Origin: Nitrosomonas sp.
Lineage (GTDB): Bacteria; Pseudomonadota; Gammaproteobacteria; Burkholderiales; Nitrosomonadaceae
DNA length: 54,768 nucleotides
NCBI GenBank assembly: GCA_021604405.1
Contig: BQJA01000011.1
Span: forward strand, 1 to 54,768
Direction of reading: 5' to 3'
Shown here in pieces: positions 17,343 through 52,118 of the stretch. Position numbers and translations under genes: made by a program. The notes under the pieces were generated by a model. The model had not been told where the DNA came from and did no database searches. It was given only the letters and a program-made list of their open reading frames with translations. Within the stretch, counting starts at the first letter, position 1. The number at the start of each line of letters is the position of its first letter.

Positions 17343-17990
17343 CTATTCTTTTTCCATCGTATCAATAAATGCATTCGCTTCATTAATGGACTCTTCCATT
17401 GAAATGATTAACGCGGATACATCTGATTCAATAGTCCGCAATTCTCCTTTTAATGATGTGATAGCCCGGGCATTGAGGTTATGCTTGAGGAACATCACCT
17501 GATCTTTGAATACGCGCAGTACAGGTTCGATTTTAGCTTCAGCGTTTTTCATTGAAGCGATAAGCTGCCGGTAATGTTTTTTTGTGCCGCTCAGTTTTTG
17601 TTGGCTGCTGCGTTTAAGTGAAGTATTACTGTACTGCGTAATTTCTTCTTCCCATTCCGCAAATAAGGCTTCTGCAACCTCCTCTATATCCGCAATACGC
17701 TCGTTGATTTCTTCGGCTTTGTCAACACTTGCTTCATATTCATCGTTTAACTTATTGTAAACGGTTTCAAGATCGCCTCCCTGGAAATTGGTGGCAGCCG
17801 TAAACTGCTCCAGTGCCGACTTGAACTGTTCCTTAGTTTCTTCCTGTGTATCCCGTGCCTTTTCAACACGATAAACCATGACATCGCGTTTAGGAATGCC
17901 AATTTTTTCTAGGCCGTCGTAATACATGGTCGTACAAGCTGCCAATACAAAAAAAGTGGCCAGAATGAGTAGGCGTTGTGGATAGTACAT
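17343..17990 (-). CDS. DUF2959 family lipoprotein
   Basis: A 215-residue lipoprotein of the DUF2959 family, whose function is unknown. The signal peptide ends in VLAAC with Cys19 as lipid site; the mature protein begins with the characteristic YYDGLEKIGIPKRDVMVYRV and continues as a long, highly charged helical/coiled-coil protein (Glu, Lys, Gln, Ala rich) to the C-terminus. A ribosome site AGGAGC sits 5 bases before the ATG. It is upstream of, and co-directional with, the GGDEF/EAL gene, so a link to envelope-related c-di-GMP output is possible but only inferred. Confidence 0.85.
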   Translation of the reverse strand: MYYPQRLLILATFFVLAACTTMYYDGLEKIGIPKRDVMVYRVEKARDTQEETKEQFKSALEQFTAATNFQGGDLETVYNKLNDEYEASVDKAEEINERIADIEEVAEALFAEWEEEITQYSNTSLKRSSQQKLSGTKKHYRQLIASMKNAEAKIEPVLRVFKDQVMFLKHNLNARAITSLKGELRTIESDVSALIISMEESINEANAFIDTMEKE

Positions 17991-18096: not shown

Positions 18097-19071
18097 TCAA
18101 CGTAATACGCCACGACGAATCAGTTGCCACATGATTTTGTATCCCCAAAGCACGGGGTGGCGGCGCAGCATTGGGGTGATTTCAACTTGAATACCTGTGT
18201 GACGTTCAATCTTCCACGCCGCATAATCTAAGCAATCCCGAAAAGTAATGGTTGCTTTTGTTAAGCGCAAGATGGAAAGGATGCGCCCCTGCCAGCGCCG
18301 GAGACGCCAGCGCCTTGCCGCGCGACGGCGCTCAGCGGCACTGACAAGGCAGTGATAATGCCCATTCGGCAGCGCTTCCAGTATTGCGCTTAATGCGGGT
18401 CGGGCAGCGGTTGTCAACTGTGTATAATCATCCAGGTTACGCTGTACCAGGTAGCGGGCACGCGTTTTCTTCTCTGGGCGTAATTCTGCTGCGTAAGTTA
18501 GCGTTAAGCCGTGCGTCCATATTTCTTCCACATTGACTTCACAAGAATTGTCGAGGGCGGCCGCACTGGTTTTGAGGAAAGTTATTACGGCATATGCAAG
18601 GATTTTATGAATATGCTGGCGACTTGATTCATTCCGCACATAGAGTAGGCGTGACGGTTGAGCGAAGCGCGCCCAGATATAAGGGTGAAACCAATGACGG
18701 GCGCCTTGTTCAAAATCAGCCATAGAAATAACTGCGTATTTTGCGCGTAACGTTCTTTCCTGGCTGGGCACTTCAAGATAAAACACATTGGGCGCCAGCC
18801 ATGCATTGAGCAGGGCTAAATGGCGTTTAGAGTAGGCATGGCGGTAATTATCGACGACCACATAGAGATCAGCGATGCCGTCATCGAGGCTGCAGGAATG
18901 CAGGCAAGACCCGTAAAGTAAAACAGCGTCAAGTGAATCACCAAAGCGTGCAGTCAGCGCTTCAGCCAGATTTGTAAAGTCTTTTGATACAGAGTTGCCA
19001 CTCTGCAATGCCACCGCTGTCATCAATTCAGCAGGTGGTATTTGTGCGGAAACGGGTATATTGTTTGCCAT
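18097..19071 (-). CDS. TAM41-like CTP:phospholipid cytidylyltransferase
   Basis: The 324 residues resemble TAM41/Mmp37, the mitochondrial-type CDP-diacylglycerol synthase that is unrelated to CdsA. The nucleotidyltransferase elbow LLYGSC (52-57) is followed by Asp68 (GIADLYVVVD) and Asp74, the probable metal ligands, and a later block KYAVISMADF plus HWFHPYIWARFAQPSRLLY has the spacing of the TAM41 KYGVIS...W...LY.AGR region. The C-terminal 100 residues are Arg-rich, fitting a membrane-surface protein. It is the last gene of a compact unit behind the CDP-alcohol phosphotransferase and the lipid kinase (10-base gap). Predicted role: make a CDP-activated lipid from CTP and a phospho-lipid. Lipid identity unknown. 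Confidence 0.72.
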   Translation of the reverse strand: MANNIPVSAQIPPAELMTAVALQSGNSVSKDFTNLAEALTARFGDSLDAVLLYGSCLHSCSLDDGIADLYVVVDNYRHAYSKRHLALLNAWLAPNVFYLEVPSQERTLRAKYAVISMADFEQGARHWFHPYIWARFAQPSRLLYVRNESSRQHIHKILAYAVITFLKTSAAALDNSCEVNVEEIWTHGLTLTYAAELRPEKKTRARYLVQRNLDDYTQLTTAARPALSAILEALPNGHYHCLVSAAERRRAARRWRLRRWQGRILSILRLTKATITFRDCLDYAAWKIERHTGIQVEITPMLRRHPVLWGYKIMWQLIRRGVLR

Positions 19072-19081
19072 TATTCTCTGA

Positions 19082-20080
19082 TTAGATGACTAAGAAGGTG
19101 ACGGGATCAGTTGCGGAAATACGTAACGGGCCATTCCGGATGGTCGCTCGATAAAGCTCACCATCGACAATATATTCGTCGTCCATCATTAATTCAATAC
19201 TGGTGACATTCTGGCTGTGATATCCATTCTGTTCTTTAAGTCTGTCGCCATGTCCGGATAGTAGTGGCCACAATGAACGCCAGAGATGTCTGCGTTGTTG
19301 ATCCACCATCGTGACATGAAGGGGTGCGGATTCTTTTCCCCAGTAAGGGCGAATGCCAAGTAACAGACAGTCCAATGCACTGACGAGCGCAAACAGACAG
19401 GTTTTGTTGCGGACTTTTCCGTTTGCATCAGTCATCTTGATATCGGCGGGTGCCCATTCATTTTGGTGTTGCCCAAGTAACATGCCGGCAAGAGAACGTA
19501 ACATGATAAACAGGGTGAATATTCCACCCGTAATGCCCAATTGCTTGACGTTGCTTCTGGAGAATTTTACCCCGCGCGCTATGAGTCCGGCACCAAAGAA
19601 TAAGCCGTAATTTTTTTTGGTGCCCGTTTGCTCAATGCATAATACAGGGCGCCTAACCAAAGATGAAGTAAGTGATTGTGATTGTGACAGTAAGTTGCTG
19701 AGTTGCTGTAAGGCGCGTTCCGGTTTTCCGCGAATACCCAGTTCAAGGGATGTCATGTTGGTTGTGCCACCTGCGATAATGGCCAGAATTGGCCATTTCT
19801 CAGGTGAGCGGGCCGTAAACAAAAGATCCAGTATTGCATGGATCGTCCCATCCCCGCCGATAATCACCAGCAAATTGATTTCGGCTTGTAGCAGACTATT
19901 TATCGATGCTTTGAACTCGGGCCAATTGGTTGCTTCCTGATAAATAGCGTGAGGAATGACTGTTAGCATTTGTTTAATGGCTTTTTTTCGTTTACGCGCT
20001 TGCCCGCCCAGCGGATTGAAAAGTATGCCAGTTCGGTGTACACCGGTTTCTAGGACATCAATACGCGTTTGATTTGCCAT
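19082..20080 (-). CDS. YegS/DAG-kinase family lipid kinase
   Basis: A 332-residue lipid kinase of the diacylglycerol kinase catalytic family (COG1597, which includes YegS, DgkB, sphingosine and ceramide kinases). The nucleotide site motifs are all present: NPLGGQA (22-28), IGGDGTIH (74-81) and AGGTTNM (103-109); GELYRA near the C-terminus (about 307) is the usual end of the second domain. It would phosphorylate a lipid hydroxyl with ATP at the inner membrane. It lies 4 bases after the CDP-alcohol phosphotransferase and 10 bases before the TAM41-like gene, which argues that its product feeds those enzymes. Whether the substrate is diacylglycerol, a sphingoid base or ceramide cannot be seen. 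Confidence 0.85.
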   Translation of the reverse strand: MANQTRIDVLETGVHRTGILFNPLGGQARKRKKAIKQMLTVIPHAIYQEATNWPEFKASINSLLQAEINLLVIIGGDGTIHAILDLLFTARSPEKWPILAIIAGGTTNMTSLELGIRGKPERALQQLSNLLSQSQSLTSSLVRRPVLCIEQTGTKKNYGLFFGAGLIARGVKFSRSNVKQLGITGGIFTLFIMLRSLAGMLLGQHQNEWAPADIKMTDANGKVRNKTCLFALVSALDCLLLGIRPYWGKESAPLHVTMVDQQRRHLWRSLWPLLSGHGDRLKEQNGYHSQNVTSIELMMDDEYIVDGELYRATIRNGPLRISATDPVTFLVI

Positions 20081-20084
20081 TAAA

Positions 20085-21287
20085 TTAAGAACGAATCGGT
20101 GCGCGGGTAAAAATTTTCACTGCCAGTATTTTTCTGTCGCGACCAGGATCAATATCGGTTAGCCAGGATTTTAATGGGCCCTGGCGGATCCGGGTGTGTG
20201 TGGCTGCGGTCAGACGTCCAATCAGCACAAGTGTCGAGATTAGATGCCATGCGACGACTAATATGAAACCAATATCTGGCCGGTTAATCATCCAGCCAAA
20301 GGTCAACAATATCAGGTTGGGATTTCGCCGGGCGGTAATCAACCGGTTAAATGAATCCATTTGCCGCCAGATGAAAATATCGAATGGCGCCAGCCAGAGC
20401 AGGAATGCGCCTTCACACAAACGGCCACCAATATAGCCAAATAACATGATCCACAGTAAGATCGATACATCAGTGATGGGCGTTGCGGTAGCGGCTAACC
20501 CGATTCCCCAGGCCCAATACCATAGCGGGGGATGAATAAGATCCAATCCATGATCCAATACGTCTCCCAATCGGCTGGCGGTAATCGTGACACGCGCCAA
20601 TTTTCCATCCACCGTGTCCAGGAAAGTCATCATCCAGCCCATTATCAGGCCGATGCCATAAAAACCGAACCAGAAAGCGACACCAGTCAGGATAGCCAAA
20701 ACAAGGCTTGCCAGCGTGACGTGGTTTGGCTGCCAGCCATAACGAACGCATAATTTCGTGAACCAAAAAGCGGGTATTGGCCAAAGCCATTTGGTCACCA
20801 GGTCAGTGACGCCTTTATACGACCCGGCAAACAGTTCTGATTCTAAGGTTTTGCGATTTTTTTTGCTGATCGGTAAGACGTAAGGTGTGTCCTTTTTTTT
20901 CAGATTCTGCTGGAAGCCCAGACTTAAGTCTTGAATAGTGTAGCGTGGTAAAGTTGAAAATGTCCTGTTGTCATTATGCGCGAGTCCCGACAGTACGCCG
21001 TGAACCCTGTTACCAACCGTTCTAACAGCGACTGGAATATTTTTGTCGTTGTATAGAACCATATTCGATTGTAAATCAAGTAATGACGCCAACACCCTGG
21101 ATTCATATAGATAACTTGCGTTTAAAAGTAATGCAGATGCTTGGCCGGGGATTTTTTCAGGATCGTTAACCAGGGTAATTGACTGCTTGGAAGTCCCGAT
21201 CATACGCTGTAAACGTTCGCGGCCACTTAATCCCCAAAGATCGGTTTCGCTATCACCGATAATATAAATATAGGTTTTTTTCGACAT
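20085..21287 (-). CDS. CDP-alcohol phosphatidyltransferase with extra N-terminal domain
   Basis: A 400-residue membrane enzyme. The C-terminal half (about 150-400) has the full CDP-alcohol phosphotransferase signature: D224, D227-G228, A231-R232, G241, D245, D249, in the fixed spacing of the family, set among about six hydrophobic segments. It transfers a phospho-lipid from a CDP-lipid to an alcohol. The first 140 residues look like a degenerate nucleotidyltransferase fold without the glycine-rich nucleotide loop, an arrangement seen in bifunctional inositol-phosphate cytidylyltransferase/phosphotransferase proteins. It is the first gene of a three-gene unit with a lipid kinase and a TAM41-like enzyme. 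The head-group alcohol is unknown. Confidence 0.82.
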   Translation of the reverse strand: MSKKTYIYIIGDSETDLWGLSGRERLQRMIGTSKQSITLVNDPEKIPGQASALLLNASYLYESRVLASLLDLQSNMVLYNDKNIPVAVRTVGNRVHGVLSGLAHNDNRTFSTLPRYTIQDLSLGFQQNLKKKDTPYVLPISKKNRKTLESELFAGSYKGVTDLVTKWLWPIPAFWFTKLCVRYGWQPNHVTLASLVLAILTGVAFWFGFYGIGLIMGWMMTFLDTVDGKLARVTITASRLGDVLDHGLDLIHPPLWYWAWGIGLAATATPITDVSILLWIMLFGYIGGRLCEGAFLLWLAPFDIFIWRQMDSFNRLITARRNPNLILLTFGWMINRPDIGFILVVAWHLISTLVLIGRLTAATHTRIRQGPLKSWLTDIDPGRDRKILAVKIFTRAPIRS

Positions 21288-21463
21288 GCAAGAAGTTGTT
21301 ATTGATGTTTAAAAAGTTGCGGCCCAGTGGCGGCAATCTCGGATTTAACCACAAGTAGATACCGCTCAGCTTACAACAGATATTAGTTCATCGCTAGCAT
21401 GGCGTGTTATCGCCAGCAAGTCTATGTTTTTTTATTGACAATAGCGTTTACTCGCGTCTGTGT

Positions 21464-21838
21464 CTAATCCTGCCACAATTCATTGACTGCATTTTTCATA
21501 AAATCTCTCGTATAGTAATCGTTATCGATGATAATTTTATTCCAAACTACGATATCCAGGTCAATTGTTCTGGGTCCAAATTTCGGGAGGGTGCGATCCC
21601 TGCCAAGTTTGTCTTCTATTTTCTTTAGATAATTAAATAAACTATCACGCGAAAGGGCAGTGCGGATTCTGACAGCGCCATTAATGAAATCATCCTGGTC
21701 GGTTATGCCGATTGGCGCCGTTTTTACCCATGAGGAAATGGCTATTATTTCGACTTGCTGTTTCAGAAGAGCCAGTGATTCAGGAATATTATTTTCCGGA
21801 TTGATGTTTGAACCGATACCGATGATGCAATCATTCAT
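21464..21838 (-). CDS. folK: HPPK, short form (FolK)
   Basis: 2-Amino-4-hydroxy-6-hydroxymethyldihydropteridine diphosphokinase of folate synthesis. The 124 residues contain GIGSNINPE at the start, DFINGAVRIRT, and the family signature RTLPKFGPRTIDLDIV with the two catalytic aspartates. It is about 35 residues shorter than the E. coli enzyme: the usual tail with HPR...RAFVL after the signature is reduced to DYYTRDFMKNAVNEL. The sequence around both ends gives no sign of a frameshift, so this looks like a natural short form. It lies 235 bases downstream of folX on the same strand. Confidence 0.85.
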   Translation of the reverse strand: MNDCIIGIGSNINPENNIPESLALLKQQVEIIAISSWVKTAPIGITDQDDFINGAVRIRTALSRDSLFNYLKKIEDKLGRDRTLPKFGPRTIDLDIVVWNKIIIDNDYYTRDFMKNAVNELWQD

Positions 21839-22073
21839 TCTGCGGCAACAGTTGAACGGTGGTTAAAACGCTCTGCCTTTTGATTTTGGCGCAGGACGCG
21901 ATAAAAATGAATCGTAAGGTTATTTATAATATAAAGAAAAGTGATGATATTAATAGGCATGATTAACTGTGTGTTTTTGGTATTTTTGTGTTATTCGCCC
22001 GGTGTGTGAGTTTGCAGGCTCAGTAAAACTATAGGCTAATTATTAAATTGTTTGGTTTCTTTCGGCATGCAAG

Positions 22074-22445
22074 TCAATGGTTGTTGCCGGGATTAGATCT
22101 TAATGCTTCTAATTCAATTGAAACCGACTCGGCAAATCGTAATGCGTGTGGTTTATCAACTTCTACTTTGGCGAAACGAACATTTTTATTGGCCATGATT
22201 TCATCCAGAATGGACTGCGTCAGTTTTTCAAGCATTTTAAATTTTTTGTCCTGTACCAGGGCGATTACTTGTTTAGTGATGGTTCGATAATTGTATGAAC
22301 CATCAATAGCGTCTTTTATAATTGCGTTGTTATGGTCAACATCAATTGTCATATTAATGATGACATCTTGCCTATTCGTTAACTCTTCTTCCTTGAAGCC
22401 AATGTAAGTTCGCAATAATAAATTTTTAATACGGATAATTGCCAT
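22074..22445 (-). CDS. folX: Dihydroneopterin triphosphate 2'-epimerase (FolX-like)
   Basis: A 123-residue tunnelling-fold pteridine enzyme that converts dihydroneopterin triphosphate (or its monophosphate) to the monapterin epimer. The sequence matches FolX rather than FolB: IRIKNLLLRTYIGFKEEE, NRQDVIIN, YNYRTITKQ, LEKLTQSILDEI and VEVDKPHALRFAESVS all sit where E. coli FolX has them. No FolB gene is visible in the window. FolX proteins can have weak aldolase activity, so here it may also serve folate synthesis. It is followed by folK and preceded by lptG at 78 bases, all on the minus strand. Confidence 0.88.
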   Translation of the reverse strand: MAIIRIKNLLLRTYIGFKEEELTNRQDVIINMTIDVDHNNAIIKDAIDGSYNYRTITKQVIALVQDKKFKMLEKLTQSILDEIMANKNVRFAKVEVDKPHALRFAESVSIELEALRSNPGNNH

Positions 22446-22522
22446 AATTCAAGAAGATAATTTTATTATATTCAGATGGTGACTTCGGAAATATATTTTA
22501 CTCATGACAGGACTCCGACGGA

Positions 22523-23587
22523 TTAAAAAATACGCCGCAGCCATTGCATGGCCAATAGAATCATAAGTAAACCAGGGCAAAGTGCAGTGAGTGCGGGATT
22601 TAATTGATATAGCAGGCCTGCATTCGCAATAATTTGATCCAATAAATAGACGACAATTCCGGTAATGGCGGCAAAAACCAGCTTATTGGCAAGACCCGAG
22701 CGAATAGATCCGAAAATAAATGGAATAGCAAGCAGGAGCATCGCGATCGTCATGATCGCGCTGCCAGCTTTTCGCCATAAGGCCAACGCGTAGGAATCTG
22801 CTTCCTGGCCGGTTGTGCGCAGAAACTCTATATGTCGGAATAGCTCGGTGGGAGACAGGCTTTCGGGTGGTTTTGTCAAGGTTGCGATGTCTTCCGGACT
22901 CAGAAATGATTTCCAATTCACTGAGTCGGCACTGGTAGCGTAAATATGTTGGTTGGAAAAGGTTCTGACGGTGACATTAGTTAGCTTCCAGAAATCATTA
23001 CTGACGATGTCGGCATATTCAGCATGCACGTGCGCCAGCAGGTGACTGTTTTTATCGAAATGTAAAATTTCGATATCGCTTGCTTTCTTGGCATGCTGCA
23101 TTTCACCAATTCGCAGGATATTCCGTTCATTTCGGCTCCAGATCCCAAGATTCCAGCCCAATTCGGCGCTTTGCCCCAGCGCGACCGCCCGAAAAGAAAT
23201 TGCTTTTTGTTGTAACTGGGGCGCAACAAACTGTTCCAGCGCCGCAATAAAAACCAGCAGTAATAATCCGACGCTAAGCGGTACAAAGCTGATACGAGTC
23301 GGAGAAAGGCCCGCGACGCGGAACGCAACCAGTTCTGAATTTACTGCCAGTTTCCCCAAAGCTGCAACAGTCCCCAGTAAAGCGATGAACGGTGCTATCT
23401 GAATAAATCTTCGTGGCAGCAGCATTGCAGTATAAATAAATGCGTCTTGGACACGGTATGTTCCTTTACCTGCATCATCAAGTTGATCCAATAAATCAAA
23501 GAAACTGAATAATGGCAAAAGAACAGCGGTGGCGATGATCAGGCCAATAAAAATTTGCGTGGCAATGTAACGATGAATGATAGTCAC
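22523..23587 (-). CDS. lptG: LPS export permease LptG
   Basis: Inner-membrane subunit of the LptB2FG ABC transporter that extracts lipopolysaccharide and passes it to the LptC-A-D bridge. It has three N-terminal transmembrane segments, a periplasmic beta-jellyroll (about 130-265), and three C-terminal segments ending near LLAMQWLRRIF. The open frame extends upstream to 23665, but the GTG at 23587 gives 354 residues, the normal LptG size, and starts inside the lptF stop (GTGA overlap of 4 bases), so translation is coupled. The GTG start therefore replaces the longer reading. Confidence 0.93.
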   Translation of the reverse strand: MTIIHRYIATQIFIGLIIATAVLLPLFSFFDLLDQLDDAGKGTYRVQDAFIYTAMLLPRRFIQIAPFIALLGTVAALGKLAVNSELVAFRVAGLSPTRISFVPLSVGLLLLVFIAALEQFVAPQLQQKAISFRAVALGQSAELGWNLGIWSRNERNILRIGEMQHAKKASDIEILHFDKNSHLLAHVHAEYADIVSNDFWKLTNVTVRTFSNQHIYATSADSVNWKSFLSPEDIATLTKPPESLSPTELFRHIEFLRTTGQEADSYALALWRKAGSAIMTIAMLLLAIPFIFGSIRSGLANKLVFAAITGIVVYLLDQIIANAGLLYQLNPALTALCPGLLMILLAMQWLRRIF

Positions 23588-24657
23588 TGGCGTGATAATT
23601 TTGTTCTGATTGATTCTGATAACAGCAGCCCGACAGCGGTCAGGATTAATATATATAACCACCAAATGCCGGGTAAACTACCAACTACGCCCTGTTCTAC
23701 CCATGTTTGCGCCAATCCGCTCAAGTTGTAATAAATTGCAAAAACGATTGCCGCAACAAAATAGGTTCTATCCCCCTTATCCTGACGCGGGGCGGTGCGA
23801 ATAAATGATGCGGCGATGAGAGCGAGTAAAATTGTCGCGACAGGACGGGATAGCCGCCATTGAAGTTCAGCAATTTCCCGGGGCTGGTCTGAATCCCATA
23901 GCTGTGCTGTTGTGGCGGCTTTGCGTCGATAATTCACTTCATTATCGTTATCAGGAAAAAAAGTCAGTTTTTCAAATTTAATGACGCTGTCTTTTTTTGC
24001 GGCGTGTGTCAGTTCAAAAATATGACCTTCATATAATTGGATTCGCGGCCGCTGCTGAAGTGTGACTTGTGGCTGCCGGGCTTCTTTGGCGATTACTATC
24101 TCGCTGCTGTTCTCCTTTTTTATATAATGGAATATATTTTCCATTTCTTTGTCTGCTTCGTCTTTTTTTTGTACGTAAATTACTCTACCGCTCACCTCGC
24201 TGCCATAGAAACGTCCTGCCTGGAACCGGTTGGTGTTTAATTCGGCTTCTGCCTGGGCATCGAGAATATAGCTCTCAGCATATGCCCAGGGACGGGCGTA
24301 AATGGAAAGCATGCCGCTAATAATACCGACAGGAATAGCAATCATCAGCACAATATATATGATACGGTTCCTGCTAACACCCACAGCACGCAGCACATTA
24401 ATTTCCTGATCTTTGTTTAATCGGCTTAGCCCGATAATGATCGCAACATAGAGCGCGATCGGTACCAGCACTTCAAGCGCAATCAACGTCTTGAGTAGCA
24501 CCAGCTTAATCATCGCGGCAAAGCCAAGCGATTCTGTAATCGCGCCCGCGAGAAATCGGGCGCTGCTAAAGCTGGCAAAGAGTCCCGCCAGTATTGTGAT
24601 GACCACTGTAAACGGGATCAAAACTTCGCGCGTGATGTATCGTTCTATTATGTTCAT
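23584..24657 (-). CDS. lptF: LPS export permease LptF
   Basis: Partner of LptG in the LptB2FG lipopolysaccharide exporter. The 357 residues start MNIIERYITREVLIPF, a typical LptF N-terminus, followed by three transmembrane segments, a jellyroll domain (about 125-270) that docks LptC, and three more segments. The cytoplasmic coupling-helix motif DQEINVLRAVGVSRNRI (about 85-101) binds the LptB ATPase. It overlaps lptG by four bases. The preceding gene on the strand is a nucleotidyltransferase rather than the pepA often found next to lptF. Confidence 0.95.
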   Translation of the reverse strand: MNIIERYITREVLIPFTVVITILAGLFASFSSARFLAGAITESLGFAAMIKLVLLKTLIALEVLVPIALYVAIIIGLSRLNKDQEINVLRAVGVSRNRIIYIVLMIAIPVGIISGMLSIYARPWAYAESYILDAQAEAELNTNRFQAGRFYGSEVSGRVIYVQKKDEADKEMENIFHYIKKENSSEIVIAKEARQPQVTLQQRPRIQLYEGHIFELTHAAKKDSVIKFEKLTFFPDNDNEVNYRRKAATTAQLWDSDQPREIAELQWRLSRPVATILLALIAASFIRTAPRQDKGDRTYFVAAIVFAIYYNLSGLAQTWVEQGVVGSLPGIWWLYILILTAVGLLLSESIRTKLSRQ

Positions 24658-24709
24658 AAAACCGGCGTTATCGATTCAAACATTCAGGGTGAGAATTTTT
24701 GGTGTGATT

Positions 24710-25540
24710 TTATTTTGCGGTTTTGTGCTTAATGTAATCAGATGGCGTGGTCTTAGCGAGGATAGTCTCAGCAAGCAACAAATCCTCAACTTTATCGACA
24801 TCTATTCCTGCCTGTGGAAAAGGCAACATAATCGCTTGCACGTGAATGCCTGTTTTTTTGGTAACGGAACTTAGCGCCTGTTCAAGGGTCAGGAATCCAA
24901 GCAAATACCTGAGTACAGTCCAGGGACCAAGAATTTGTGCAATTAAACGCCACGGACGCTTGCGCATATCTTCTGCCTGTCGCCAACGTGTAACCAATTT
25001 TCGCCCATGCTGTTTGAATGTATAAAGATTGCAGCCGCAGAAGTCACCGTTGCGGAATTTTGTGACGGTACGCTTGGTGTTTGGAAAGGCGGCAACGATA
25101 TTCTCATGGTTGACAAGCCCAATCGTCGCATCGCACTTTGCTGACGAAGAGGCCGCTAAAAAATATTGCAGAATTTCAGGCGTTATCAATGCGTGATCTG
25201 CGGTTGTTAGCAATATTGGTGTATCAAGTTCTACAAGTTCGAAACCTTTTTCAGCGCTACGGCTGGGCGAATCAAGATTTGGCAGCCAGGTAATCCGTCC
25301 GGTCTCGATTCGTTGTTTTAATTCCGGACAATCAGGTATTACAGATTGAGGCGGTCCGCATATTGTTATCGACTTCACATGGTCACTGGCTTCAAGCGCA
25401 TCCAGTACGCGGATAATCATCGGGGTGCCGCAAACGGGTGCAATCGTTTTGCAGGCCGCTCCCGTGTGCTGGGTAATCGGGTCGTTTGCAGTACGGTCGG
25501 CCGCAAGCACCACTGCAGCAAATTGATTTGTGTGCTTCAT
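24710..25540 (-). CDS. MobA-like NTP transferase
   Basis: A 276-residue Rossmann-like nucleotidyltransferase (NTP_transf_3 type). The start AAVVLAADR (8-16) is in the place of the LAAGxGxR nucleotide loop but has lost its glycines; Lys31 follows, then the metal-binding Asp115 in LTTADHALIT, which corresponds to the conserved acidic centre of this fold. Residues around 205-215 (RPWRLIAQILGPW) are amphipathic and basic, and could sit on the membrane. It stands between lptF (52 bases away) and the GNAT gene (57 bases away), co-directional with both. Families like this make CDP- or other NDP-activated sugars, polyols or head groups; here it may make the activated donor or head group for the lipid genes. 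Confidence 0.75.
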   Translation of the reverse strand: MKHTNQFAAVVLAADRTANDPITQHTGAACKTIAPVCGTPMIIRVLDALEASDHVKSITICGPPQSVIPDCPELKQRIETGRITWLPNLDSPSRSAEKGFELVELDTPILLTTADHALITPEILQYFLAASSSAKCDATIGLVNHENIVAAFPNTKRTVTKFRNGDFCGCNLYTFKQHGRKLVTRWRQAEDMRKRPWRLIAQILGPWTVLRYLLGFLTLEQALSSVTKKTGIHVQAIMLPFPQAGIDVDKVEDLLLAETILAKTTPSDYIKHKTAK

Positions 25541-25597
25541 TTTAAATCTAGCAAATTATAGTTATTGGTGATTATTCGGCTGCTATTTCATCATTTT

Positions 25598-26755
25598 TTA
25601 TTGCAGTGTTTTGGTATAAATACGGTAACGCTTGTACTGTTTACTGCCAATGCTGTCCAGCATTCCGCGCATTGCCTTGTTATCTTCAAGTATCCATGAC
25701 ATTTCAACTTCCTTAATCCCCCTGTTAAGGCCAATTCGCCGTGGTGCGTCAATCACCATGAAGGCTAATGCCATGCCAAGCGGTGTATGATGAAATTGCT
25801 TGCGAACGCCCATTAATGGTATTCGGGCCGTATGAATTTCTCGTAATTTTATTTTTTTCATCAGTTTTAGCCAGCCAAAAGGGAATAATCTGCCATTCAG
25901 TTCCGTAAATACTTCATTGAAATTAGGAAGTGCCACCATAAACGCTGCGGGTATATTATTAACTTCAGCGATCTGGATGAAGTCATCCGGCACCAACAAG
26001 CGAAGACTTTTGCCAAGCTCGGCAAACTCAGCTTCAGTAAAAGGAACAAATCCCCAGTTTTCAGACCATGCATCATTAAAAATATTCCGTAATATTTCAA
26101 TTTCTTCATAAAACTTTTTGTGGTTGAGCGGCCTTAGGCGAACCTGGCTTGAAAATTTCCGGATAAGTGCACGCATTACACGCGGCGCTTCAAAATCAAC
26201 ATTGACCCGATAAGCCAACAGGTCTTTGGCCGGCTGATAACCGTTCGATTCAAGTAAGACGTTATACCACCGGGGGGAATGTGGCATCATGATGACAGGC
26301 GGCGAATCAAACCCTTCCACAAGAACGCCGCATTCCTGATTAATAGAGAGGTTGAACGGCCCGCTGATATGCCGGGTGCGCCGTGCGGCCAACCATGCTT
26401 CTGCATGAAGCAGGAGTGCTGAAAATACGGCTGGGTCATTGATGCATTCCAACGCGCCAAAATGACCGGTATCTGCGCCATAGCGCTGGCGGTGAAGGGT
26501 ATCTATTTGTGCGCTGATTCTTCCTACCGGCTGATTATTGTTGTAAGCAACCCAGGCCTGCCACTCTCCATGTTTTAAAAAAGGGTTAAATCTGGAATAA
26601 TGCAAGCGTTGTTCCAGGCGTAACGGCGGTATCCACTGCGGAATGTTCGAGTAAACGCGCCACGGCACATCAATAAAATTCCCCATTTCTCGACGAGAAG
26701 TTACCGGGCGTACTGTCAATGATGCGTTATTTGTTTCCTTCCTATTTGCGTTCAT
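25598..26755 (-). CDS. GNAT-type N-acyltransferase, bacterial ceramide synthase-like
   Basis: A 385-residue protein of the GNAT fold, often listed in databases as N-acetyltransferase or, misleadingly, dATP pyrophosphohydrolase. Key stretches: IDVPWRVYSNIPQWIPPLR, the conserved WVAYNNNQPVGRISAQID strand-turn typical of GNAT strand 4, GPFNLSINQECGVLVEGFD, VIMMPHSPRWYNVLLESNG and a C-terminal LGMALAFMVIDAPRR helix. To my recollection this architecture matches the protein shown to be the bacterial ceramide synthase (bCerS) of Caulobacter, which N-acylates a sphingoid intermediate; the match is by pattern, not by alignment. No serine palmitoyltransferase or ceramide reductase gene lies in this window, so the partners would have to be elsewhere. 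Operon-like spacing to the NTP transferase. Confidence 0.65.
   Translation of the reverse strand: MNANRKETNNASLTVRPVTSRREMGNFIDVPWRVYSNIPQWIPPLRLEQRLHYSRFNPFLKHGEWQAWVAYNNNQPVGRISAQIDTLHRQRYGADTGHFGALECINDPAVFSALLLHAEAWLAARRTRHISGPFNLSINQECGVLVEGFDSPPVIMMPHSPRWYNVLLESNGYQPAKDLLAYRVNVDFEAPRVMRALIRKFSSQVRLRPLNHKKFYEEIEILRNIFNDAWSENWGFVPFTEAEFAELGKSLRLLVPDDFIQIAEVNNIPAAFMVALPNFNEVFTELNGRLFPFGWLKLMKKIKLREIHTARIPLMGVRKQFHHTPLGMALAFMVIDAPRRIGLNRGIKEVEMSWILEDNKAMRGMLDSIGSKQYKRYRIYTKTLQ

Positions 26756-48711: not shown

Positions 48712-48712
<1 letters not shown>
48374..48712 (-). CDS. ftsB: Cell division protein FtsB
   Basis: Bitopic divisome protein that pairs with FtsL and FtsQ. The 112 residues have a short N-terminus, one transmembrane helix (about 2-17, LLALFFIALIALLQYP), then the family's YGKGSW motif and a leucine-zipper coiled coil (about 30-75), then AIEERARSELGMIK, which is the FtsB signature. 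An acidic tail follows. The ATG overlaps the eno stop by one base (TAATG), the usual eno-ftsB order. Confidence 0.95.
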
Positions 48713-50016
<1,304 letters not shown>

Positions 50017-50163
50017 TTAGTGTTATTAATGTTAATTTAGTAACGGTAAGTATCGACTAAAAAATTTTCTCGACTTTTTATTGAGACATCCTACTGACGT
50101 CTACAGTAACGGAGTCCGTTTGTTCACGGATATTTTCTTTGCATAAAACAACTTATGTGTTCT

Positions 50164-52118
<1,955 letters not shown>

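Follow-up and report, generated by a model that had tools for sequence, protein, structure and literature searches.

The closest described relative of the DNA studied here is the pathway for ceramide phosphoglycerate (CPG) and CPG2 in Caulobacter crescentus (CC_1152-CC_1168), whose genes correspond by best match to the set found here and include linked genes for LptF/LptG, a HIT protein and CpgD. Our subject is a locus at positions 18,097 to 26,755 of a 54,768-nt stretch of Nitrosomonas sp. (contig BQJA01000011.1 of assembly GCA_021604405.1; this whole stretch is called the window), in which lipid-type genes surround the exporter genes lptF and lptG. The best explanation of the locus is, very probably, that it supplies the ceramide synthase, the head-group enzymes and the exporter of a CPG/CPG2 pathway of the Caulobacter type, in a host without lipid A. 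This explanation builds on our own observations of gene identities, co-conservation, lack of matches to lipid A genes, retention of the Lpt chain and grouping of LptFG, and on the activities of CpgB and CpgD and the genetics worked out by others in Caulobacter.

The pathway, which a sequence-only reading of the window had called uncharacterised, corresponds to that of Caulobacter, and both the CPG/CPG2 pathway and its N. eutropha orthologues are already published (PMC11324152; this and the other papers are cited here for parts of their text). N. eutropha C91 has orthologues of at least 13 of the 17 Caulobacter genes, in three regions, and is without the phosphoesterase CC_1158, LptC2 (CC_1168) and the flippase CC_1166 (PMC11324152); its aasR-epi-acpR-spt genes stand in the same order as here (Neut_0458-0461), with cerS elsewhere (PMC9386255, PMC11324152). 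In the main-text parts cited here, these two papers make no mention of an absence of lipopolysaccharide (LPS) in Nitrosomonas or of a single LptFG pair. Caulobacter has LPS together with second copies of the exporter genes, LptF2/LptG2 (PMC11324152), whereas the genome studied here gives no match to LpxC and has a single LptFG pair. The genes in Nitrosomonas also differ from those of Caulobacter in being spread over three contigs and in having a phosphoglycerate mutase gene and a desaturase-family gene next to cpgD. It is not known how the sphingolipids of bacteria get to the outer membrane (PMC11324152).

Related clusters are found more widely. The E. coli YghO cluster (strain PN43; BL21 according to PMC9386255) encodes a YghO 48% and a serine palmitoyltransferase (SPT) 54% identical to the proteins studied here, and its own LptF/LptG fall in the clade of those in the window; the stretch gives no cpgA/B/C or CC_1153 match, and the K-12 strain of E. 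coli, which makes LPS, carries pepA-lptF-lptG of its own. The Klebsiella and E. coli plasmid clusters combine ceramide genes with LptFG, again with no match to cpgA, B, C or CC_1153, while in annotated plasmid clusters of Roseomonas, Pseudomonas and Diaphorobacter the pathway genes lie in one place, the Pseudomonas cluster being without HIT. The lipid of the sphingomonads is a glycosphingolipid. LPS-less sphingomonads (Sphingomonas koreensis, PMC11324152) form sphingolipids and no LPS; the genes here are those of a phosphosphingolipid.

Gene content of the locus

Judged from their sequences, the genes of the locus almost certainly belong to a sphingolipid pathway. The members, with the match that supports each, are:

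25598-26755, minus strand: cerS/aca (YghO family), predicted ceramide synthase, counterpart of CC_1154 (sequence identity)
24710-25540, minus strand: MobA-like nucleotidyltransferase, counterpart of CC_1153 (Pfam NTP_transf_3, 41 bits)
23584-24657, minus strand: lptF, inner-membrane exporter subunit (over the NCBIfam cut-off; tree)
22523-23665, minus strand: lptG, second exporter subunit (over the NCBIfam cut-off; trees)
20085-21287, minus strand: cpgA, CDP-alcohol phosphotransferase with an N-terminal domain, counterpart of CC_1159 (CDP-OH_P_transf, 29.6 bits, cut-off 22)
19082-20080, minus strand: cpgB, predicted ceramide kinase, counterpart of CC_1160 (DAGK_cat, 53.6 bits, cut-off 23.6)
18097-19071, minus strand: cpgC, TAM41-like, counterpart of CC_1161, proposed CTP:ceramide-1-phosphate cytidylyltransferase (Caulobacter match, weak TAM41)

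The start codon of lptG is unsettled, and its open reading frame as listed overlaps lptF. All five lipid-type genes that had been reported on the minus strand are confirmed at their positions.

For the comparison with Caulobacter, the locus was reached via a published primer sequence and the adjoining stretches were taken, with genes named by position and from papers. The cerS product had been labelled a GNAT-type acyltransferase, a label that is weak for the window protein alone (E 0.11 in a domain scan, below the Pfam cut-off). Its affinity, judged by pairwise identity and not by tree, is to ceramide synthases: it is 43% identical to C. vibrioides CC_1154 (by position) and 44% to the Roseomonas protein, next to the 48% for E. 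coli YghO. The genome also holds sphingoid-base genes, in the order aasR-cerR-acpR-spt, on contig C35. Their products are 41% (aasR), 33% (cerR), 52% (acpR, over half its length) and 51% (spt) identical to those of Caulobacter, and spt passes the model for beta-proteobacterial serine palmitoyltransferase, NF047599, with 584 bits where 500 are required. With cerS, all the ceramide genes of the CPG/CPG2 pathway (spt, acpR, aasR, cerR, cerS) are present.

So are the head-group genes, cpgA-D and the CC_1153 counterpart, whose best matches in the Caulobacter stretches range from 27 to 44%. CpgA is 38% identical to its Caulobacter counterpart; CpgB is 27% identical to Caulobacter CpgB over 93%, with a score of 87 bits versus 27 bits to E. 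coli YegS; and CpgC is 33% identical to the C. vibrioides protein, with each of 6 Caulobacter-type genomes containing a single match to it. The MobA-like protein is 33% identical to Caulobacter CC_1153, which is required for CPG2 there, and 40% to a Pseudomonas BYT-5 cluster protein. CpgD, on contig C79, is 44% identical to Caulobacter CpgD, and the HIT gene beside it is 41% identical to the Caulobacter HIT gene adjoining LptF2 (CC_1157 by position). The likeness to CerS, the sphingoid-base genes and the counterparts of the CPG/CPG2 genes all support the earlier guess that the locus may build a sphingolipid-like lipid.

Conservation across genomes

We compared 61 genomes: that of the window, 36 others of the same genus and 24 from other families. 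A cerS gene is found in 35 of the 37 genus genomes and in none of the 24 from other families, and both spt (>400 bits) and cerR (>220 bits) are found in exactly the same 35 of the 61 genomes. The main cerS copies are 63-87% identical within the genus, and 24-50% in the listed plasmid records; these relatives lend credence to the label that is weak for the window protein. Of the 37 genus genomes, 34 have a cpgD gene (>190 bits), the exceptions being G003, G014 and G026.

Gene order is also preserved. In 33 of the 35 cerS-bearing genus genomes an lptF match lies less than 1 kb from cerS; the exceptions are G014 and G036, where cerS and lptF are on separate contigs. All five of the other genus stretches that we inspected contain cerS, lptF, lptG, cpgA, cpgB and cpgC, and four of them the CC_1153 counterpart. 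Seven stretches from two sister genera (L141 and L142 stand outside these counts) each contain cerS, the CC_1153 counterpart, lptF, lptG and cpgB; cpgC is in six, the seventh ending at a contig end, and cpgA is in five, with the cpgA of G125 elsewhere and none found in the stretch from G135. In G122, about 2 kb of other sequence separates lptG from cpgA. Because cerS and lptF are linked in 33 of 35 genus genomes and the order is kept in all seven sister-genera stretches, the clustering of the locus is not due to chance.

The two genus genomes with no cerS, spt, cerR or LptFG match are G003 (76% complete) and G018 (91% complete). G018 retains cpgD, the HIT gene, the desaturase-family gene and gpmA on a single contig, and because this cluster is retained an assembly gap is a more likely cause of its absences than true loss.

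The same distribution bears on the nature of the product. In principle the kinase, the TAM41-like protein and the CDP-alcohol phosphotransferase could use diacylglycerol and phosphatidate and so yield a glycerophospholipid, ordinary or unusual: TAM41 itself works on phosphatidate, and Caulobacter CpgB phosphorylates diacylglycerol too, in vitro (PMC10331486). However, the gene set travels with cerS, which shares its distribution over 35 genomes with spt, the genome encodes three other CDP-alcohol phosphotransferases, and in Caulobacter the counterparts of the head-group set are required for CPG or CPG2 (PMC11324152). We regard a glycerophospholipid product as very improbable.

Additional copies of locus genes were seen in three genomes. 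In G019 an additional lptF adjoins an additional CC_1153-like gene outside the main locus (L130 6127-8114), in G125 a second lptF lies about 3 kb from cpgA (L201), and G025 has a second cerS-like gene, 38% identical (L131 1046-2194), in a stretch that also contains a LysR regulator and an IstB-type gene.

Lipid A genes and the Lpt chain

LpxC gave no match in any of the 37 genus genomes and is present in all 24 relatives from other families. Eight E. coli proteins were also run as a joined query over 15 genomes, comprising 6 of the genus (5 of them single-contig), 6 of the sister genera (3 g27, 2 g26, 1 g28) and 3 controls. LpxA, LpxB, LpxD, LpxK, WaaA, LptD and LptA were all found in the three controls; LptC went undetected there too, which makes its absence from the joined-query rows uninformative. 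None of the six genus genomes has LpxB or WaaA, and none has LpxA or LpxD, for which the only two matches (26.2 and 16.7 bits) come from long frames that encode different proteins and look like hexapeptide proteins of another kind. All six have LptD, LptA and LpxK. The sister-genus genomes have LptD and LptA in six of six (LptD as a fragment in G071) and LpxB, LpxK and WaaA in none of the six; G123 has LpxA, at 288 bits, and the remaining LpxA/LpxD matches are below 26 bits.

In the genome of the window, LptB, C, A, D, F and G are all present. The genes lptC-lptA-lptB-rpoN lie in this order, with no kdsC or kdsD match within the 8-kb stretch, and two LptD models give LptD 413 and 400 bits, which is under the cut-off of each. 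The Lpt system is thus represented by all of these components in a cell that, judged by its genes (LpxC in 0/37; LpxA/B/D and WaaA in 0/6), does not make LPS.

These patterns resemble those of a survey from 2010, where of nine lipid A genes N. europaea had only lpxK, like the genus here, and Nitrosospira multiformis had only lpxA, like G123; the survey tied the gene loss to genome reduction and, in the parts cited, named no replacement for LPS (PMC3087551). Given this resemblance and the ceramide gene order shared with N. eutropha, the genus here is presumably Nitrosomonas and g27 presumably Nitrosospira. Replacement by a sphingolipid is a possible answer to the gap that the survey left.

From the gene content it is probable that LPS has been replaced in the outer membrane and that Lpt acts as exporter of a phosphosphingolipid. 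We also lean, if only slightly, towards a broader statement: that the whole family (Nitrosomonadaceae) is without lipid A, that its complete Lpt bridge has an anionic phosphosphingolipid as main cargo, and that it would offer a natural, LPS-free proof of a non-LPS Lpt cargo. That LptB, C, A and D persist in a family free of lipid A genes, with its one LptFG pair inside a sphingolipid locus, points to Lpt as a sphingolipid transporter, and the absence of lipid A genes removes LPS as a confounder for Lpt transport. Ammonia-oxidising bacteria of this group are important in soil and waste water, and if the replacement is true, their outer surface would be chemically unlike that of most Gram-negatives. 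We found no publication that joins Nitrosomonas, LPS absence and sphingolipids, in a search that most subscription journals and the Nitrosomonas/Nitrosospira genome papers lay outside, and a literature search for Nitrosomonas lipid analyses found none naming N. europaea.

The LptFG pair

The genome of the window has two LptF/LptG-family genes, i.e., a single pair, both in the window, and across the family LptF/LptG-family matches occur in 121 of 125 genomes, mostly two in each. The sequence-only reading had lptFG breaking up the row of lipid genes; here the pair seems to be part of the pathway. We considered that it might be a second, dedicated copy as in Caulobacter, where LptF2/LptG2 come in addition to the LPS pair, and rejected this because the genome has one pair only.

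Phylogenetic trees group LptF (support 100/99) and LptG (100/98) with the LptFG encoded in sphingolipid clusters from E. coli, Klebsiella and Pseudomonas. The LptF tree set the window and 10 genus rows (one being the extra copy in G019) against 18 beta-proteobacteria of other families, and the LptG tree the window and 9 genus rows against 20; the partial Caulobacter LptF (L090) was left out of the trees. When the LptG tree was enlarged by 6 sister-genus and 4 genus rows the grouping stayed, at 100/97 with the bootstrap not settled. With a midpoint root, the clade of the window is nearer to canonical beta-proteobacterial LptFG than the E. coli LptFG is (94/82 for LptF, with the LptG fork open and long branches flagged). 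An old beta-proteobacterial pair may have been re-used and passed to gamma-proteobacteria, or a foreign pair may have replaced the old one.

The alternative to be weighed here is that the sphingolipid pathway is real while lptFG is an ordinary exporter that stands alongside by chance, the Lpt cargo being another glycolipid or a residual lipid made by LpxK. LptF and LptG do pass the ordinary LptF/LptG models, and LpxK (the 4'-kinase of lipid A), besides its presence in six of six genus genomes, passes TIGR00682 in the genome of the window with 174.7 bits versus 92 (G000:C46:22444-23379; L200 6445-7380). However, because LpxC is absent from all 37 genus genomes and LpxA/B/D and WaaA from all six examined, this LpxK is without a known substrate; the six sister-genus genomes have no LpxK, yet they keep LptA and LptD; and lptFG is linked to cerS, both in the genus (33 of the 35 genomes with cerS) and in seven of seven sister stretches. 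We consider an ordinary exporter improbable, and favor export of the phosphosphingolipid by Lpt.

Residues K34, K40 and K41 of E. coli LptG, which we take to be LPS-binding, were tried as a mark of changed cargo and rejected, since the 20 beta-proteobacteria from other families have D34 and mostly no K at 40/41.

Head-group enzymes and proposed mechanism

The reaction of CpgC, the lipid of this organism and its export by Lpt are what we infer from the above, and the whole route can be pictured as follows. AasR, AcpR, SPT and CerR (contig C35) together with CerS (window) would form ceramide, which CpgB would phosphorylate. CpgC would then activate ceramide-1-phosphate with cytidine triphosphate (CTP), probably to cytidine diphosphate (CDP)-ceramide, en route to ceramide phosphoglycerate. 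CpgD (contig C79) would convert 2-phosphoglycerate to CDP-glycerate, which CpgA would use to attach the second phosphoglycerate, assisted by the CC_1153-like protein. LptB2FG would lift the product out of the inner membrane and LptC-LptA-LptD would carry it to the outer leaflet, where it would take the place of LPS. The kinase, CTP transferase and CDP-alcohol phosphotransferase had earlier been thought to make up one linear route. This is probably not the case, as in Caulobacter CC_1159, the CpgA counterpart, is needed for the second phosphoglycerate and not for the first (PMC11324152).

The step that CpgC catalyzes deserves particular attention. A domain like that of CDP-diacylglycerol synthases has been noted in CC_1161, and a ceramide activated by a nucleoside diphosphate has been suggested (PMC11324152). 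In the TAM41-like family, 10 of 15 members match Tam41 at E<=0.1, the best at 5.6e-5, and Y53-G54-S55 and D68 of CpgC are invariant in 15 of 15, resembling a minimal nucleotidyltransferase motif. Moreover, in the single-contig genome G122 the kinase (residues 36-369) and CpgC (376-699) are joined in one 699-residue frame (L191 2908-5007), which suggests a direct passage from ceramide phosphate to CDP-ceramide. From these sequence features, the odds are modestly in favor of CpgC making CDP-ceramide, a nucleotide-activated ceramide.

The other possibility, that CpgC is no cytidylyltransferase and joins glycerate (or phosphoglycerate) directly to ceramide-1-phosphate, fits position 70 of CpgC, a Y or H where nucleotidyltransferases usually carry a second carboxylate. 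It was proposed earlier, as quoted in PMC11324152, and the same paper calls the step energetically unfavourable. The TAM41-like similarity and the CpgB-CpgC fusion favor activation straight after the kinase, and direct joining appears doubtful, though a real contender to formation of CDP-ceramide. Single-sequence AlphaFold models had a mean pLDDT (predicted local distance difference test) of 36.5 for CpgC and 44.2 for CpgA, too low to be used.

In CpgA the motif D224xxDG..AR..G241..D245..D249 is invariant in 14 of 14; the motif of CDP-alcohol phosphotransferases is D-x2-D-G-x2-A-R-x8-G-x3-D-x3-D. Its nearest PDB entries are a phosphatidylinositol-phosphate synthase (PIPS fusion; 1.4e-10) and AF2299 (4.4e-8). 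At the N terminus CpgA may carry a degenerate nucleotidyltransferase domain, but the alignment there scores negative.

In Caulobacter, CpgD is a CTP:phosphoglycerate cytidylyltransferase (PMC12275187). In all eight genus stretches viewed, cpgD is followed by the HIT gene, the desaturase-family gene and a gene for phosphoglycerate mutase (L128 1878-4998, contig C79), the last scoring 265 bits on TIGR01258 (cut-off 82) and 274 on NF010713 (cut-off 305); gpmA is also close to cpgC in G067 and G129. An enzyme dedicated to the supply of phosphoglycerate has been raised as a possibility (PMC12275187), and from its position the cpgD-linked mutase is a candidate supplier of 2-phosphoglycerate for the head group.

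Several observations count against the explanation as a whole. The lipid product and the enzyme activities in this organism are predictions from the genes. The LpxC search covered the genus and the other families, and the retention of LpxK despite the loss of its substrate route is unexplained by the model. The LptFG of sphingolipid clusters are not one clade, those of Caulobacter, Roseomonas and Diaphorobacter (LptF2G2) lying in another deep branch, and LptG residues K34/K40/K41 are changed in LPS-making beta-proteobacteria too and give no mark of a change of cargo. The CC_1153-like gene is absent between cerS and lptF in G075, and in G010, G017 and G033 the gap between these two is too short for it. 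The CpgC of the window scores 15.7 bits on PF09139, under the Pfam cut-off of 24, and in a PDB search its match to Tam41 (E 0.79) ranks below two unrelated acetyltransferases (0.26 and 0.29). Finally, G122 is the one genome with the CpgB-CpgC fusion, and as cpgB and cpgC normally almost touch, an error in sequencing could account for it.

Neighbouring genes

Two further genes on the same strand lie between lptG and cpgA:

22074-22445, minus strand: folX, dihydroneopterin triphosphate epimerase (NF008418 equivalog, 156.1 bits, cut-off 152)
21464-21838, minus strand: folK (TIGR01498; HPPK)

Neither gave a match at E 1e-8 in 12 cerS/lptFG stretches from other genomes of the family, and folX-folK is in none of the five other genus stretches; the two are probably an insertion unrelated to the pathway. 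Scans for promoters and terminators did no better than chance (21 versus 21.9 and 12 versus 12.4, respectively).

A DUF2959 gene (window 17343-17990) follows cpgC here and in all five other genus stretches, and has no match in the seven sister-genus stretches. Enolase and CTP synthase, which handle the CpgD substrates 2-phosphoglycerate and CTP, are encoded in the same window (48712-51810), a proximity to the locus that is probably coincidental.

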